Of a DNA stretch of 64,000 nucleotides, positions 9,086 to 27,598 are shown piece after piece (positions within the stretch are counted from its first letter, which is position 1; each line of letters starts with the position of its first letter). The DNA comes from a virus. The stretch spans positions 44,413 to 108,412 of IMG/VR virus record IMGVR_UViG_3300034072_000578. One strand, written 5' to 3'. The position numbers were made by a program, and so were the translations under genes. The notes below the pieces were generated by a model that did no database searches, was not told where the DNA came from, and saw nothing but the letters and a program-made list of their open reading frames with translations.

Positions 9086-9162
9086 GCGCGTTTAGCTCAG
9101 TTGGTAGAGCAGTCGGCCCCTAATCCGACAGGCCACGGGTTCGATCCCTGTAACGCGCACCA
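9086..9162 (+). tRNA. tRNA with an 8-nt anticodon loop (CCT-like, Arg?)
   Basis: Acceptor GCGCGTT/AACGCGC, D-arm GCTC/GAGC with GG, T-arm CACGG/CCCTG-type, A73 and CCA are all normal. The anticodon stem GTCGG (9112-9116) and CCGAC (9125-9129) is perfect but encloses eight bases, CCCCTAAT, with no U at position 33. Reading from the 5' side gives CCT (Arg AGG). An expanded loop of this kind is known from +1 frameshift-suppressor tRNAs. Confidence 0.8.
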
Positions 9163-11278: not shown

Positions 11279-11878
11279 ATGACTCAGTTGAACGCCGAAA
11301 CGGCATCTGAATTCGATTTCGTTGCCCTGATCGACGCTTCGGGTTCGATGGGCAATCCGTCCGTCAAGATGCCGGGGAAGACCCGCTGGCAGGAAATGCA
11401 AGAGTCGCTGCTGGGCTTCATCCGCGCCATCGAACCGTTCGACGCTGACGGCATCGATGTCGGTGTGTTCGGCCCGAACTTCGAAGTCGAAGAAGGCGTT
11501 ACGTCCGCCACCATCGACAAGCTGTTCGCTTCGCGTGGTCCGCGTGGTTCGACCCCGCTGCATGATGCCATCGCGTGGACCATCGACAAGCAGAAGAAGA
11601 CCGGCAAGAAGACCTTCGCCGTCATCTTCACCGATGGCGAGCCGAACGATCAGGCGCTGGTCGCCAAGCTCATCACCGATGCTTCGAACAACATCGCGAA
11701 GGATGAAGACCTGACGTTCCTCTTCATCCAGATCGGCGACGACAAGGCGGCGCGGAACTATCTCGATCATCTGGACGACCAGTTGACCGGCAAGTTCGAC
11801 ATCGTGGACGTTGTGAGCGTCACCGAAGCGGACTCGATGGAACCGCTGGCCCTCATCAACAAGGCCATTGCCGACTAA
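11279..11878 (+). CDS. VWA-domain protein, TerY-like
   Basis: 199 residues forming one von Willebrand A domain. The MIDAS motif is DASGS at 19-23, the Thr is in GSTPLHDA, and the Asp in FTDGEPND. Such stand-alone VWA proteins accompany TerB and TerC in tellurite-resistance/stress gene clusters, where they are thought to assemble membrane-associated complexes. Third codon positions are almost all G or C, unlike neighbouring phage genes, which points to recent acquisition together with terB and terC downstream. Confidence 0.8.
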   Translation: MTQLNAETASEFDFVALIDASGSMGNPSVKMPGKTRWQEMQESLLGFIRAIEPFDADGIDVGVFGPNFEVEEGVTSATIDKLFASRGPRGSTPLHDAIAWTIDKQKKTGKKTFAVIFTDGEPNDQALVAKLITDASNNIAKDEDLTFLFIQIGDDKAARNYLDHLDDQLTGKFDIVDVVSVTEADSMEPLALINKAIAD

Positions 11879-11931: not shown

Positions 11932-11973
11932 GGGGTAGTAGAAGTAGGAAGAAATGCTTCTACTACCCCTTTT
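11932..11973 (+). terminator. Terminator or attenuator between VWA and terB
   Basis: GGGGTAGTAGAAG (11932-11944) pairs perfectly over 13 bp with CTTCTACTACCCC (11957-11969), followed by TTTT. It lies between VWA and terB and would reduce read-through within the cassette. Confidence 0.85.
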
Positions 11974-11989
11974 AGTAGCGGGGTTTAAT

Positions 11990-12436
11990 ATGGGTTTCCT
12001 CGATAGCCTCAAAGGCATCGCCTCCAACTTCATGGCTGATGCTGAAAAGGCTCTTAGCCGCATGTCCGACAAGGCGACTTTCATTCGCACCGTCCAAGCT
12101 TCCTATCTGGTCGCTGCCGCTGATGGCAACGTATCGGATGAAGAGAAGGTGGTTCTTGGCCGCGTCATCGCCAAGAAACTTCCTTCCTTCAAGTCGTCGG
12201 AGGTTGCTAAGGCAATCGATGACTGCGCCGAAGAAATGTCCCTCTCTGCCGTAGCTGGTAAGGTTGCTCTTATGGAGAGCATCGAAAAGGCTGCTGGCAC
12301 TGATGGTGCAAAGGTCATCATGCTTGGCATGTTGGCCGTGGCCAATGCCGACAATGAGTTCCAACCCTCCGAACAGCAGGTGGCGCGGGCCATTTGCGTC
12401 AAGCTCGGTCTTCGCCCGCAGGAGTATGCGCTATAA
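11990..12436 (+). CDS. terB: TerB-family tellurite-resistance protein
   Basis: 148 residues from ATG 11990. An all-helical protein with the paired acidic motifs of TerB: AAADGNVSDEEK in the first half and ANADNEFQPSEQQ in the second, both metal-binding in the family. The longer upstream frame has no better start. The stop overlaps terC (TAATG). In bacteria TerB works with TerC and TerD in a membrane-associated stress/defence complex. Confidence 0.85.
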   Translation: MGFLDSLKGIASNFMADAEKALSRMSDKATFIRTVQASYLVAAADGNVSDEEKVVLGRVIAKKLPSFKSSEVAKAIDDCAEEMSLSAVAGKVALMESIEKAAGTDGAKVIMLGMLAVANADNEFQPSEQQVARAICVKLGLRPQEYAL

Positions 12437-13035
12437 TGGAATGGTTACTTGCTAACCTGATGACGTTCGGTAGTATCGTTCTGCTGGACATCGTTCTCTC
12501 CGGTGATAACGCCGTTATTATCGGGGCAAAAGCCGCCAGCCTTCCCGCCGAACAGCGTAAGAAGGTCATCAAATACGGCATGTTCATGGCCGCAGGTTTC
12601 CGCATCGTTCTGCTGTTCCTCGCGACCTACCTGCTACAGATTCCCGGTATCCGACTCGCCGGTGGTCTTGCCCTGCTCTATGTGGCGTGGGGTATGTTCA
12701 AGGATATCAGGGACAATGGTATCGTTGATGGTAGCACGGAGAACGTAACGGCTGCTGCGAACTATCGTTCCGCACTCTTCGCCGTTGCTCTTGCCGATCT
12801 TTCGATGTCCATCGATAACATTCTTGCCGTTGCTGGTGCTGCCGGGGATCATTACTTCGCGCTCATCTTCGGTATCGTGTTGTCGATCTTCATCATGATC
12901 TTTGCTGCCAATGCGGTAGCGAGACTCATTGAGAAGTATCGTTGGCTGGCTTGGTTCGGCTTGCTGCTGGTCCTCTATATCGCGGGTCATCTGATCTATC
13001 AGGACGTTCCAGTCATCGTGTCTTGGACTTCCTAA
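12436..13035 (+). CDS. terC: TerC/YjbE-family integral membrane protein
   Basis: 199 residues with six or seven membrane spans. DIVLSGDNAVIIG at the N-terminus and DLSMSIDNILAVAG in the middle are the two conserved acidic intramembrane motifs of TerC. The family is tied to tellurite resistance and to manganese or other metal export. Translationally coupled to terB and followed by a strong terminator. No TerD or TerZ gene is present, so the cassette is minimal. Confidence 0.88.
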   Translation: MEWLLANLMTFGSIVLLDIVLSGDNAVIIGAKAASLPAEQRKKVIKYGMFMAAGFRIVLLFLATYLLQIPGIRLAGGLALLYVAWGMFKDIRDNGIVDGSTENVTAAANYRSALFAVALADLSMSIDNILAVAGAAGDHYFALIFGIVLSIFIMIFAANAVARLIEKYRWLAWFGLLLVLYIAGHLIYQDVPVIVSWTS

Positions 13036-13187: not shown

Positions 13188-14065
13188 CACCGGCAAGGAA
13201 ACGAACCGGTCGCTGCTTGAAGCGGATAAGCTAGAGTAATCTGGTGAAAGGTTAGGAGCCAAACCAAGCCGCCTAGTAATAGGTCAACTTAAGCAACATG
13301 GAACTGACCGAAAGGTTCCTCTATACAAGTAGGGGATAGATTGAAGGATAAGGGTTTTAGGTCCGAAAGGATAACTAGCAGAGCTAATCGGTGAGCTAGT
13401 GAAGTCGCAAACACCTGCACCAAGCAAAACTTATTCGAAGTCGATAGTGAACCATAAGGGTAATAGTTCGACCATTAGCGTGGAAGAGCATTAGCCAGTT
13501 ACCAAAGGTGGAGACACTTTACGTAACCGTTGAGTAGCCCGCAAGGCGAAAGACATGAGGCGTGTGGCATGTTGTTCCCCAAAAGGGAATGATACCATTG
13601 GACAAGCACGTCTTAACTGGAAACAACTTAGCATAACGGTAATGCGATGGACTCTTAATCCATTGATTGTTGGTTCAAATCCAGCAGTTGATTCATCAAC
13701 GCAAAGCCTTGTCCAGCTATAAGTGAAAGGCACCTAAGCCCTACCTAGAGTGGGGGCATGAAGTCTCGCAAGGATGGATTGTTTGTAGTGGAAGAACTCA
13801 TTGCTCTTTAGCGGGAGCTTAATGGAGGTAAAACTTCAATGGGATTAAGATACTATGAGTAGCTTGTAGTGATATCGCAAATGCCAGCGATTAATAAAAT
13901 GGCGGTGTTGGTAGTTACTATGATACCTTGACCGGGTTATAGTGGAAAAGGCCCTAAACAATAAGGGGTTTAAGACTGCCCTTAGTAAGTGTATTCTCAG
14001 CTTGCTAATTACATATGGGGATAATCGCGTAAAGTCATTGGTCTGACCGCTCGGTTTCCCCACCA
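13188..14065 (+). ncRNA. Large structured RNA with embedded tRNA-like domain (GOLLD/ROOL-like?)
   Basis: About 880 nt with no plausible gene on either strand, between its own promoter and a tRNA group. Local helices include ACCGG/CCGGT, CGCT/AGCG, GGAAC/GTTCC, TCC-GAAA-GGA, CTAGC/GCTAG, GTCGA/TCGAC, GTTAC/GTAAC around AAAGGTG-GAGA-CACTTT, TTCCC-CAAAA-GGGAA and ATCGC/GCGAT, whose loop can pair with a downstream TGGC (pseudoknot). GGACAAG (13600-13606) with CTTGTCC (13708-13714) encloses a tRNA-Lys(CTT)-like fold. The 3' end reads TTTCCCCACCA. Size, phage origin, tRNA neighbours and tRNA insert recall the GOLLD and ROOL classes, but membership needs a covariance search. Confidence 0.7.
13622..13693 (+). 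tRNA. tRNA-Lys(CTT)-like domain inside the large RNA
   Basis: Acceptor AACAACT/AGTTGAT pairs at six of seven positions, D-arm GCAT/ATGC with GG, anticodon stem ATGGA/TCCAT around CTCTTAA (anticodon CTT), T-arm GTTGG-TTCAAAT-CCAGC. No CCA is encoded (T then CAT). It is framed by the 7-bp helix GGACAAG/CTTGTCC, so it may be a structural domain, a released tRNA, or both. Confidence 0.65.
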
Positions 14066-22163: not shown

Positions 22164-22257
22164 TTGTGACAAACCCAAAGAGGAAAGCCGCGATAACAGC
22201 CAAGAAAAGAAGATTGGCAATTACCAAAGCGATATCGAGATAAAGATTATTCGTCAT
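22156..22257 (-). CDS. Single-span membrane peptide, 33 aa
   Basis: ATG at 22257. One hydrophobic helix (ALVIANLLFLAVIAAFLFGF). It overlaps the following gene. Probably the first gene of the leftward unit served by the promoter at 22507-22535. Confidence 0.45.
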   Translation of the reverse strand: MTNNLYLDIALVIANLLFLAVIAAFLFGFVTSE

Positions 22258-22506
22258 GGTTCCGACTCCAGATTGGTTAGTTTATTCCACTAGCTTTAGG
22301 AACGGCGGTTAATTGCTTAACCGCTTTCCTAATGGCTCAATCGTTAGTGTCTGATTGAGTAAGCCCCATTGTGGGTTGCTAGGTAAAGCGGATGACATAA
22401 CGGCCCAACCTAGCCCCTAAGGGGAACGCCTAACCATTAGGCGATTAACCTAGGGGCTTACCGTCATCGGGCCTAGGTGGCGGGGCTTGTTCCCGCCGAT
22501 GTCCCT

Positions 22507-22535
22507 ATCTAGGGGCGGATTCGTGATTCGGTCAA
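22507..22535 (-). promoter_or_regulatory. Leftward promoter with two GANTC sites
   Basis: On the - strand TTGACC (22535-22530), 17-bp spacer with CGAATC twice, CTAGAT (22512-22507). The -35 and spacer are almost identical to the site at 25547-25575. Confidence 0.7.
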
Positions 22536-22561
22536 GCGCTAAAATGAAATTATTTTTGCCC

Positions 22562-22597
22562 CTAATCTAAGCTCATCGGACGGCTAGCTTAGATTAG
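22562..22597. repeat. 12-bp inverted repeat
   Basis: CTAATCTAAGCT (22562-22573) and AGCTTAGATTAG (22586-22597) are perfect complements with a 12-nt loop. The TTAGATTAG core recurs next to the parS-like site (25657-25665) and, inverted, near 26568. Confidence 0.6.
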
Positions 22598-22863
22598 CGG
22601 ATTCCTTGCTCTAATACCAAACAGACACCCGTGCGCGTATGTTGCAAGAGCCATGCCAAACCTAATAGCCCCTATAAGGCGTTTTAAGCCCCTTACAGGG
22701 CCTTTAGGGGGCCTAAGCTACCCTAACACCTAAAAGAGGTGATTCGGCCCTGTATGAGCGTTTCAAGAGTGCGACTCGTAAGAAGGTCGGAAATAAGCAA
22801 ATAAAGTTATTTCAAGTGAAAAGTGATTTTTTTAATCTCATTCCAGAAAAGTGATTTTTAGGT

Positions 22864-22892
22864 TTGACATTAAATGCCGAATCGCCCTAAGA
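22864..22892 (+). promoter_or_regulatory. Rightward promoter with GANTC in the spacer
   Basis: TTGACA (22864-22869), 17-bp spacer containing CGAATC, CTAAGA (22887-22892). It points to the gene at 23094, with a leader of about 190 nt. Confidence 0.65.
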
Positions 22893-23093
22893 GGGAGTCA
22901 CCGGACGGGGCAACCCAGACGGTCCAGCCTCCCCTAGAGGCAACTGGCTCTTTCTCATTGTTGGACTAATGCCCTTCGCTAGGCGGCACAAAAACCTAGG
23001 AAGGAAATTAAATAGAACCCCATTAAAAAAGGGGCTTGCGAATCACTAAATAATTCGCCATTAAATAATCACACCGAACGAAAGGAACCTACC

Positions 23094-23246
23094 ATGAAAA
23101 AATTCTGGATCGAATGGCTTGACGGTAGCTTGATTGGGGAAGTAGAAGCGGAAAGCGAAAGACAAGCCCGCAACATATGCGAGAACCACGCTACGGGGTG
23201 GGGGCTGGAGCCGGGAACCTACCAGCTACGGGAGAAGCCGGAGTGA
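23094..23246 (+). CDS. Hypothetical protein, 50 aa
   Basis: ATG behind AAAGGAA. Acidic, with two Trp in the first nine residues (MKKFWIEWLDG). The only + strand gene between 18857 and the right end. Unrecognised. Confidence 0.55.
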   Translation: MKKFWIEWLDGSLIGEVEAESERQARNICENHATGWGLEPGTYQLREKPE

Positions 23247-23299
23247 CCGGGAGGGGGCCGCGAGGCTCCCACCCCACCCCAAGGGGCTTCTGGCTAGTC

Positions 23300-25546: not shown

Positions 25547-25575
25547 TCTATGGGGTGATTCGCTGATTCGGTCAA
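25547..25575 (-). promoter_or_regulatory. Leftward promoter with two GANTC sites
   Basis: On the - strand TTGACC (25575-25570), 17-bp spacer carrying CGAATC twice, CATAGA (25552-25547). It reads towards the gene starting at 25166. The intervening 380 bases hold G+C-rich foldbacks and no gene. Confidence 0.65.
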
Positions 25576-25632
25576 GCGATATCTTTGAACCAGAATAAAA
25601 CGAAACCAGAAAGCCCGCTAACCTTATCTAAA

Positions 25633-25648
25633 TGTTTCACGTGGAACA
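25633..25648. other. parS-like site
   Basis: TGTTTCACGTGGAACA matches the bacterial parS consensus TGTTTCACGTGAAACA at 15 of 16 positions. It is flanked by CTAACCTTA (25618-25626) and its complement TAAGGTTAG (25652-25660). No parA or parB gene is visible in the window, so host ParB would be the likely binder. Confidence 0.6.
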
Positions 25649-25681
25649 CTCTAAGGTTAGATTAGGGAACCTTTAGAAGGC

Positions 25682-25714
25682 AAAATAAAAGCCCCGCATC
25701 CTTAGACGCGGGGC
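25682..25714 (-). terminator. Terminator after the DUF2786 gene
   Basis: On the - strand GCCCCGC, ten-base loop, GCGGGGC, then TTTTATTTT. Dyad at 25691-25697 and 25708-25714. Confidence 0.88.
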
Positions 25715-25765
25715 AACCTAATAACCATTCCTTAAGCTTCTTGATGATCCGCTTTAGCTTGCGCT

Positions 25766-26464
25766 TCATTCCAGATATCCTTTCACTTCCGACTCAACCC
25801 CCTTGCTGAGCTTCACCTTAGAACCTTCTTCATAGCCATGTCCAGCTATTTCTTGGCTTCCGGTGTAAAGGGCAATATCTTTCTTGCTGGTCTTTTGCCC
25901 TTTGGCTTTGGGCATTTCCCTAAGAATGATATCTTGTTTCAGCACAATAAGAGCGTTACCAGCTACTTCCTTTTCTGCAATCATTTTAACTAGGGATTCA
26001 TGAACCGCCACAAGGAACCCCAATTTAAAGTTATGCTTGATTTCATCACCCTTAACCCCATTGTTAATGAGCCGGTGATAAGCAACAGTCATGGGAAGCT
26101 TATGATAGCCGGTGATAAGGCTATCTGAAATGAGGTCATAAAGCCAGTTGGCATATTGAAGGTCTACGGGAAGACCGTAAAAGATGATGTTTTTATTGTC
26201 TTCGCTTTTAACCGCATATGTATCGGTAAGCTTAGCAATGGCCTTACAGATAAGCTCCATCTTATCCGTCTCTTTGCGGGGCTTCTTAGTAAAGCTTTCA
26301 ACCTTACTGGACTTAACTTCTAGGTCAGTCTCAGTGAGGCGATACTTTGCCATCATCTTTTCGAAAGCATTAGCAAACGCCATTGCCTCTTCGGGAGTTC
26401 CAGCGTTATTAGCCTTCGCTTTAATTGCGTTCAGCTTGCGGATGATGTCGTCCCGGTTGGTCAT
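25766..26464 (-). CDS. DUF2786-family protein
   Basis: 232 residues. The N-terminal 45 residues (IIRKLNAIKAKANNAGTPEEAMAF...MAKY) match the helical DUF2786 domain. The remainder resembles the C-terminal region usually fused to it. The family is common in phages and mobile elements, function unknown. It is read from the right and followed by a terminator. Confidence 0.75.
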   Translation of the reverse strand: MTNRDDIIRKLNAIKAKANNAGTPEEAMAFANAFEKMMAKYRLTETDLEVKSSKVESFTKKPRKETDKMELICKAIAKLTDTYAVKSEDNKNIIFYGLPVDLQYANWLYDLISDSLITGYHKLPMTVAYHRLINNGVKGDEIKHNFKLGFLVAVHESLVKMIAEKEVAGNALIVLKQDIILREMPKAKGQKTSKKDIALYTGSQEIAGHGYEEGSKVKLSKGVESEVKGYLE

Positions 26465-26802
26465 GTTTGCTTCCTAGGTGATTCGTTGCTGTTGAGACTG
26501 GTTTAGGGGGTTATTGGGGTTAGTGCAAGTTTTTTCTTTTTGGTGTTGGATTGTGTGTGTCGCTAATCTAACCTAAGTGAGCTTTAAATTTTTTAATCTT
26601 AACTTATAAAATCCTGCCGATCCAACCAACTCAAAAAACAAACTCAACTCTCCCTATCTATCCCTTTCCCTATATACAACCAAACCAAATCAACTACCCT
26701 CAACTACCAAAACCCTCCCCTCTTCCCCTACCTTCTCCCTTTCCCTTTCTCTCCCCTATATACAACCCTTCCTTATGCTCTTCACGTATGTAAAGCTTTA
26801 TC
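26465..26802. other. Spacer with a 157-nt G-free tract
   Basis: From 26620 to 26776 the + strand contains no G at all: it is a run of C, T and A with CCCTATATACAACC present twice. Read from the - strand it is a C-free, purine-rich leader or tail downstream of the gene ending at 26803. No gene is present. Possible roles are an R-loop or replication site or an unstructured RNA. Confidence 0.7.
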
Positions 26803-26958
26803 CTATCGGCTCCTTACTTCCTTCACTATATCGACGGATACAAACCGGACCTTATTAGGTTGACCGTCTATATATCTGTCTATTGCTTCTATTAGTTCCT
26901 TTCTTGCTTCTTCCCTTGTTTCGGCTTTCATCGTTACCGTGAATTTATGTTCGTTCAT
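26803..26958 (-). CDS. Hypothetical protein, 51 aa
   Basis: TAATG overlap with the gene upstream. Charged and helical (KAETREEARKELIEAIDRY). Unrecognised. Confidence 0.55.
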   Translation of the reverse strand: MNEHKFTVTMKAETREEARKELIEAIDRYIDGQPNKVRFVSVDIVKEVRSR

Positions 26959-27128
26959 TAGAAAGGCCCTTCCTCAATGAGTTTCTTAATCTTATACCTA
27001 TGCAGTCTTGTTCGTGCTGCATTATGTTTTGCTTGGGCGATTTCGTTATCCCTATGTGTAACAACGACTCCGGCAATAAGTTTGCTTTCTTCGTTGTTCA
27101 TATGTTTTGGGATTATTGGCATTGTCAT
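26958..27128 (-). CDS. Hypothetical protein, 56 aa
   Basis: ATG directly after the upstream TAA. Basic C-terminal half (HNAARTRLHRYKIKKL). Unrecognised. Confidence 0.5.
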   Translation of the reverse strand: MTMPIIPKHMNNEESKLIAGVVVTHRDNEIAQAKHNAARTRLHRYKIKKLIEEGPF

Positions 27129-27350
27129 TTAATCTTGTCCTATTTGTTCATAGGGGATTTGGTTATCCGTAAAGAACTGTTTTATATATTCCCTTGCTTC
27201 TTCGTCTTTCATGTGGAAGAGTTCGCTGGGGCTTTTGAAATAGTCAGGATAGCGATTGACGATTGCCTGCCCTAGCCTTTCATGGGGGCGGTTAGCAGGG
27301 TTAGCAAGCGCATAGATATCCTTGCGATACATTTGCTTTCTTATTGTCAT
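27129..27350 (-). CDS. Hypothetical protein, 73 aa
   Basis: Basic N-terminus (MTIRKQMYRK) and acidic C-terminus. Overlaps the upstream gene by four bases. Unrecognised. Confidence 0.55.
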   Translation of the reverse strand: MTIRKQMYRKDIYALANPANRPHERLGQAIVNRYPDYFKSPSELFHMKDEEAREYIKQFFTDNQIPYEQIGQD

Positions 27351-27598
27351 TTGTTTTGCCCTGCTGCTACGGCTTCTTTTGCTACGGACTTACATGCTTC
27401 GATGTTCCAGATTTCTTCCCTGCATATCTGGAACGCTTTCATATAATCATCATAGCCGGGTTTTCTGGCTTCGATGATTTTGTGTTCGATGATCCGGTTG
27501 ACGGTGATTTCCCTTTCGGAGGGGATGACAGAGCCGACCAGCGAGCCAAAGACAGCCGATAGACCTACGCAGCTAACAAAGAGGGTCTTTTCCTTCAT
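27347..27598 (-). CDS. Hypothetical exported or membrane protein, 83 aa
   Basis: ATG 27598 with GAGGTAG upstream. An earlier GTG at 27613 is possible. The first 28 residues are a hydrophobic signal or anchor (LFVSCVGLSAVFGSLVGSVI), followed by a charged helical domain with two Cys. Confidence 0.55.
   Translation of the reverse strand: MKEKTLFVSCVGLSAVFGSLVGSVIPSEREITVNRIIEHKIIEARKPGYDDYMKAFQICREEIWNIEACKSVAKEAVAAGQNK

Follow-up and report, generated by a model that had tools for sequence, protein, structure and literature searches.

A cytosine-free tract of 157 nt in the leader of a DUF2786 gene of a large phage

A non-coding stretch of strict composition, 157 nt without a single C on its sense strand, lies in the window analysed here, the 64,000 nucleotides that span positions 44413-108412 of a virus record 108,412 bp long. 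The tract looks like a control element just ahead of a gene, and we infer its function. Our preferred but tentative reading, to which we assign a probability of roughly 0.3, is that it serves as an R-loop-prone leader that would open adjacent A+T-rich DNA, working like oriF of phage T4. Control by transcription termination factor Rho and a neutral origin are close rivals of this reading.

Composition, setting and distribution of the tract

The sequence-only reading of this DNA had reported a G-free run of 157 nt on the + strand, and a run scan returned the same run to the exact coordinates, with a + strand composition of A46 C68 G0 T43. Since the neighbouring genes all lie on the - strand, the sense RNA of the tract is C-free. 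The - strand is 43% G and 71% purine with zero C, in agreement with the purine-rich, C-free transcript that had been predicted. G is thus enriched while C is wholly missing, which is a stronger property than the absence of G. In the 108,412-bp genome, the longest other G-free run and the longest C-free run are each 57 nt. From genome-fitted Markov models (orders 1-4), the expected number of G-free runs of 157 nt is 5e-14 to 7e-13 (about 1e-13), and the earlier judgement that such a run is essentially impossible by chance is borne out; a chance origin was rejected on these grounds. The difference between G and C in 150-bp windows is -67 at the tract against a genome s.d. of 8.6 (7.8 s.d.), the next extreme being 34. 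The features of the gap and its surroundings are as follows, in the sense direction.

26803-26958, - strand: 51-aa ORF upstream of the gap, without a family match (ORF list, family search)
26620-26776, - strand (sense): C-free, G-rich tract of 157 nt, without G on the + strand (run scan)
26754-26767, - strand: GGTTGTATATAGGG, copy 1, upstream in the sense direction (motif search)
26714-26738, - strand: G-rich core, the top 25-bp G4Hunter window of the genome (absolute score 2.0)
26668-26681, - strand: GGTTGTATATAGGG, copy 2, 86 bp from copy 1 (motif search)
26578-26612, no strand: A+T-rich block, 5 G/C in 35 bp, directly downstream of the tract in the sense direction
26465-26570, - strand: C-rich, G-poor arm (106 nt) ahead of the start codon (C>G window scan)
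26470-26475, - strand: likely Shine-Dalgarno sequence AGGAAG, 5 nt ahead of the ATG, within the end of the C-rich arm (read from the sequence)
25766-26464, - strand: gene of a DUF2786/DUF7168 protein, 232 aa, phrog_421, directly downstream (family match)
25691-25714, - strand: hairpin of 10 pairs with a T-rich tail, resembling an intrinsic terminator and following the DUF2786 gene (terminator scan)

The tract is intergenic and fills half of a 338-nt non-coding gap ahead of the DUF2786/DUF7168 gene. In our own ORF set the intergenic gaps have a median of 4 nt, and this gap ranks fourth largest. Three of the four largest (840, 381 and 338 nt) fall between 22.2 and 26.8 kb, the least coding part of the genome. 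Within the gap the sense order runs from the C-free tract through the A+T-rich block, which is in the lowest 0.2% of genome windows by G/C, to the C-rich arm with its AGGAAG and then the ATG.

The repeated sequence noticed earlier within the tract proved to be CCCTATATACAACC, present at 26668-26681 and 26754-26767; elsewhere in the genome it has no site at one mismatch or fewer and a single site at two. A T7-like promoter was considered, as TATATAGGGGAGA resembles TATAGGGAGA, and was rejected because the motif is confined to this gap: the genome-wide repeats expected of such a promoter did not appear, GGTTGTATATAGGG having no site outside the gap at one mismatch or fewer. No gene for a single-subunit (T7-like) polymerase was found among the proteins scanned, which are a part of the proteome. 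The tract is not coding sequence, as no ORF of at least 50 aa overlaps it on either strand, and the spacing of the 14-mers, which is not a multiple of 3, also counts against coding. Modification of G (7-deazaguanine or other) was rejected as an explanation of the G-free strand, since no such genes occur among the scanned proteins. No intramolecular G-quadruplex of four G3+ runs with N1-7 loops is present in the tract, where the only such motifs have loops of up to 12 nt, and an Rfam search of 25600-27400 gave no family at the gathering score (best E 0.19).

The virus is a large siphophage infecting bacteria. Its record carries a 127-bp terminal repeat at the ends, and the genome was therefore taken as complete. 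At the protein level it is akin to Rhizobium phages, Stenotrophomonas phages and Nickievirus; DnaE-type polymerases with 37-39% identity to its own occur in Rhizobium phage RHph_X66, Stenotrophomonas phage BUCTxx99 and others, whose genomes measure 109-122 kb. Genes for a DnaB helicase, a primase, a CobT-like protein, RNR and a nicotinamide phosphoribosyltransferase are present, and from 19.2 kb of the window onwards the genes run on the - strand. Elsewhere in the window, a GOLLD RNA (RF02032, 183.6 bits) lies on the + strand at 13555-14003 within the tRNA gene cluster and itself contains a tRNA-Lys. TerB- and TerC-family genes (11954-13035) adjoin a von Willebrand A-domain gene (11279-11878) and form with it a set resembling tellurite-resistance genes, here carried by a phage. 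At 9086-9162 ARAGORN called a tRNA whose anticodon has four bases (ccta); it may be a frameshift suppressor and has a good tRNA score in Rfam (57.3 bits).

Counterparts of the tract were sought in other genomes. A DNA polymerase search yielded one close relative (68% amino acid identity), a 63.9-kb fragment without a similar tract, though the fragment ends short of the site. For the relative IMGVR_UViG_3300034069_000130, nucleotide identity is about 70% and half of the genome is missing. A second contig of the phage, 100.000% identical across 72,366 bp, is uninformative about constraint; it is the sole second copy of the gene and the gap, neither of which occurs in the relatives examined. Beyond the identical contig, protein searches with the DUF2786, DUF932 and SbcC-like genes had no hits. 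Eight related or comparison records lack the DUF2786 family, and among phage records tblastn found a relative of the protein in DSS3_MAL1 alone. As the DUF2786 gene is missing from relatives, the site is accessory DNA. No G-free or C-free run of 64 nt was found in the other records searched except in a Klebsiella phage, where the run is a short tandem repeat and hence a different thing. Searching viral contigs with the 14-mer gave 72 stretches, mostly due to chance; a gapped search for two copies gave seven, none recognised as a relative of the phage, and matches to a GGG-spaced C-free pattern were poly-G sequencing artefacts only. An AT-rich virus (L059, 28-160; L036, 11302-11434) has a 133-nt C-free, G-rich tract that holds the 14-mer in apparently non-coding DNA directly before a possible gene start. 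We judged it a coincidence of composition; it is possibly a convergent case.

RNA folding, hybrid energetics and the R-loop reading

The sense RNA of the tract has a predicted minimum free energy (MFE) of -9.3 kcal/mol, compared with a mean of -37.7 for genome windows, and folds more weakly than all 600 windows sampled, as anticipated for an unstructured transcript. Using nearest-neighbour values that are general knowledge, we calculated that the RNA-DNA hybrid of the tract is favoured over the DNA duplex by a ΔΔG of -33.9 kcal/mol (mean -4.3, s.d. 7.5), which places it second of the separate 157-nt windows when the two strands are taken together. The proposal of a stable hybrid or R-loop is thus consistent with the modelled energetics, but the property is not unique to the tract. 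The highest predicted R-loop propensity of the genome belongs to a partly coding, GC-rich segment on the + strand at 23131-23290, with a ΔΔG of -42 over 157 nt. Pairing between the G-rich and C-rich arms was also assessed. The predicted duplex (-48.2) is no better than that of arm-wise shuffles (-52.6, s.d. 4.3), and a specific RNA hairpin between the arms was therefore rejected.

We propose that the leader of the DUF2786 gene may contain a non-coding control element on the - strand, of which the tract makes up the upstream half. Behind RNA polymerase, the nascent RNA would re-anneal onto the C-rich + strand template, and the resulting R-loop would keep the A+T-rich block open. The phage's own helicase and primase could then enter at the opened DNA, in the manner of the T4 R-loop origins, and the R-loop would later be removed by a UvsW-type helicase of the phage. 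Such a helicase is encoded (L077:2631-4079) and matches T4 UvsW (2oca) over residues 12-447 with an E value of 4e-12. Further phage proteins include a RecA/UvsX-like recombinase, a gp32-like SSB and a T5-type 5'-exonuclease besides DnaB and primase. The order of the parts and the genes for UvsW-type, RecA/UvsX-like, gp32-like and 5'-exonuclease proteins fit a reading modelled on T4 oriF (PMC3016281). The position of the tract within a control region that bears a parS site, described below, fits a replication or maintenance locus.

The idea of a replication origin, raised before, finds favour in the A+T-rich block and in this set of proteins but not in other signs. The GC-skew check across the full genome showed no polarity switch at the tract (71 kb of the genome); skew changes sign near 44 and 63 kb, where it tracks gene direction. 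The only exact DnaA box lies far from the tract. No similar tract occurs in the annotated relatives X66, BUCTxx99 and nickie, of which X66 and nickie replicate without one. If the R-loop reading is true, the tract would be a phage origin from which C has been purged, leaving its transcript able to re-pair with DNA only, and it would make a clean test object for the causes of R-loop formation.

Competing readings and the nearby parS site

It is possible, if on balance doubtful, that the tract is a neutral relic, a purine-rich, low-complexity stretch grown by duplication and slippage in a weakly constrained accessory gap. Its presence in one virus only, in a gap adjoining a gene absent from relatives, is consistent with this, as are the duplicated 14-mer and the diverged internal repeats found besides it. 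GGA, GGG and words resembling the Shine-Dalgarno sequence (AGGA/GGAG/GAGG) are not enriched in the tract over its composition, and searches of it for promoters, terminators, Rfam families and specific folds were negative. However, the tract is not a tandem array, and a tandem microsatellite was rejected. A phage with such short gaps would rarely keep such DNA, and 157 nt without C and with enrichment of G is not made by slippage of one simple unit. Because G itself is enriched, deamination of C to T alone is likewise insufficient. If neutral, the tract would be a curiosity of a single virus.

Somewhat less probable, in our view, is control by Rho, which the sequence-only reading had also raised. 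Here the C-rich arm would be a rut site in the sense RNA, at which transcription is stopped ahead of the DUF2786 gene. Upstream of it, the C-free part would offer Rho no binding and may pair with the arm and so mask it. For transcripts in the antisense direction, the G-free + strand would also act as a very strong rut trap. RNA that functions as a rut site is unstructured, rich in C and poor in G (PMC9160355). In its excess of C over G, the + strand at 26691-26768 (40 C and 0 G in 78 nt) tops all windows of the genome, at 40 vs 26 for the next best, and the + strand RNA of the tract has a predicted MFE of 0 and 52 YC dinucleotides. Yet this strongest stretch is antisense to every nearby gene, and no gene or promoter from which the antisense RNA would arise is evident on the + strand. 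The sense arm is moderate, with 29 C and 5 G in 78 nt at 26485-26562, although this is the second most rut-like window on the - strand. Masking of the arm is not favoured by the pairing, which does not exceed that of the shuffled arms.

The gap that follows the DUF2786 gene, about 1 kb from the tract, holds an exact bacterial parS site, and repeats link this gap with its neighbours:

25633-25648, no strand: parS, TGTTTCACGTGGAACA (consensus match)
25618-25626 and 25652-25660, no strand: 9-bp inverted repeat flanking parS, CTAACCTTA and TAAGGTTAG (repeat search)
25657-25665, + strand: TTAGATTAG adjoining parS (repeat search)
26563-26571, - strand: TTAGATTAG beside the tract (repeat search)
22562-22597, no strand: inverted pair of TTAGATTAG in the 840-nt gap (repeat search)
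22524-22538, + strand: TGATTCGGTCAAGCG, a 15-mer with an exact second copy in another gap at 25564-25578

The site matches the 16-bp consensus TGTTYCACGTGRAACA exactly, and TGTTTCACGTGGAACA is the reverse complement of TGTTCCACGTGAAACA, which we take to be the chromosomal parS consensus of B. subtilis and others. Among 16 further records, parS without mismatch was present in the Stenotrophomonas phages BUCTxx99 and ANB28 and, twice, in DSS3_MAL1. All copies in the four phages lie in non-coding gaps; the pattern read backwards is absent from BUCTxx99, ANB28 and DSS3_MAL1, and parS is absent from 1.38 Mb of other sequence. No ParB_N protein was found in DSS3_MAL1, so that host ParB would be the binder there. 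The one ParB-N-like protein found in the phage is encoded about 28 kb from the site. The parS sites in four phages are a firmer by-product of this analysis than any function of the tract. Chromosomal-type parS in several phages with different hosts raises the testable question of whether host ParB is recruited by phages. The 840-nt gap at 22221-23060, the largest non-coding gap of the genome, also holds several G+C-rich inverted repeats of the AAGCCCCT...AGGGGCTT type beside the inverted TTAGATTAG pair.

That a partition or maintenance locus tied to parS includes the tract as a spacer or loading zone, used by host ParB or the phage ParB-like protein for segregation or for silencing of the region, appears unlikely. 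The exact parS and the TTAGATTAG copies at both parS and the tract speak for it, TTAGATTAG occurring five times in the genome with four of the five in gaps at 22.5-26.6 kb. The parS of BUCTxx99 occupies a gap of 688 nt, next to a stretch that is among the richest in C and poorest in G of that genome, and ANB28 is similar. RNA-based prophage origins adjoin parABS in mycobacteriophages (PMC7157519). On the other hand, a gene separates the tract from parS, DSS3_MAL1 has parS without such a tract, and the coupling of parS to skew is weak and suggestive only, 2-6% of random places doing as well. Clustering of all 9-mers is just moderately above that in Markov genomes (15 clusters vs 0-7). Still more of a long shot is a combined scheme in which 22.2-26.8 kb would be a plasmid-like maintenance locus, with the C-free leader transcript priming or opening DNA by way of an R-loop beside parS, a copy of the host chromosome's own centromere, and with host ParB segregating or organising the phage genome. 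Least probable is an RNA decoy, a G-rich, C-free leader binding host CsrA/RsmA through GGA motifs or ribosomes through Shine-Dalgarno-like motifs: the 157 nt of unstructured RNA hold 10 GGA motifs, but composition predicts 8.1, the nearly foldless RNA has no hairpins to show GGA in loops, and the decoy was rejected since none of these words is enriched.

Comparison with known systems

ColE1 RNA II and similar primer RNAs resemble the proposed R-loop leader in combining a G-rich RNA with a C-rich template strand and an opened region ahead. They differ in that the tract has no RNA II-like fold, its pairing being no better than shuffles, and no antisense RNA I is known for it. With rut sites the shared traits are richness in C, poverty in G and lack of structure, seen on the antisense strand in the tract and on the sense strand in the arm; here, however, the strand with the strongest bias is antisense to all genes, and the likeness is one of sequence. 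The origins of cluster A mycobacteriophages (PMC7157519) are likewise phage DNA that is non-coding and close to a centromere-like site, whereas those phages have parA, parB and repeated 8-bp parS motifs and the present phage has a single canonical chromosomal parS.

The nearest parallel to our preferred reading is with T4 oriF and oriG. Those origins use a middle promoter, whereas the - strand scan of the gap, made for promoters of the sigma-70 type, found none directly upstream of the tract, and the origin role here is predicted. A C-free tract is not described as needed in T4. Alike in both are a transcript with an A+T-rich unwinding element downstream, represented here by 26578-26612, and a phage-encoded set of UvsW, UvsX/RecA, gp32-like SSB, helicase and primase, the UvsW-type member of which is identified by its match to the T4 structure.
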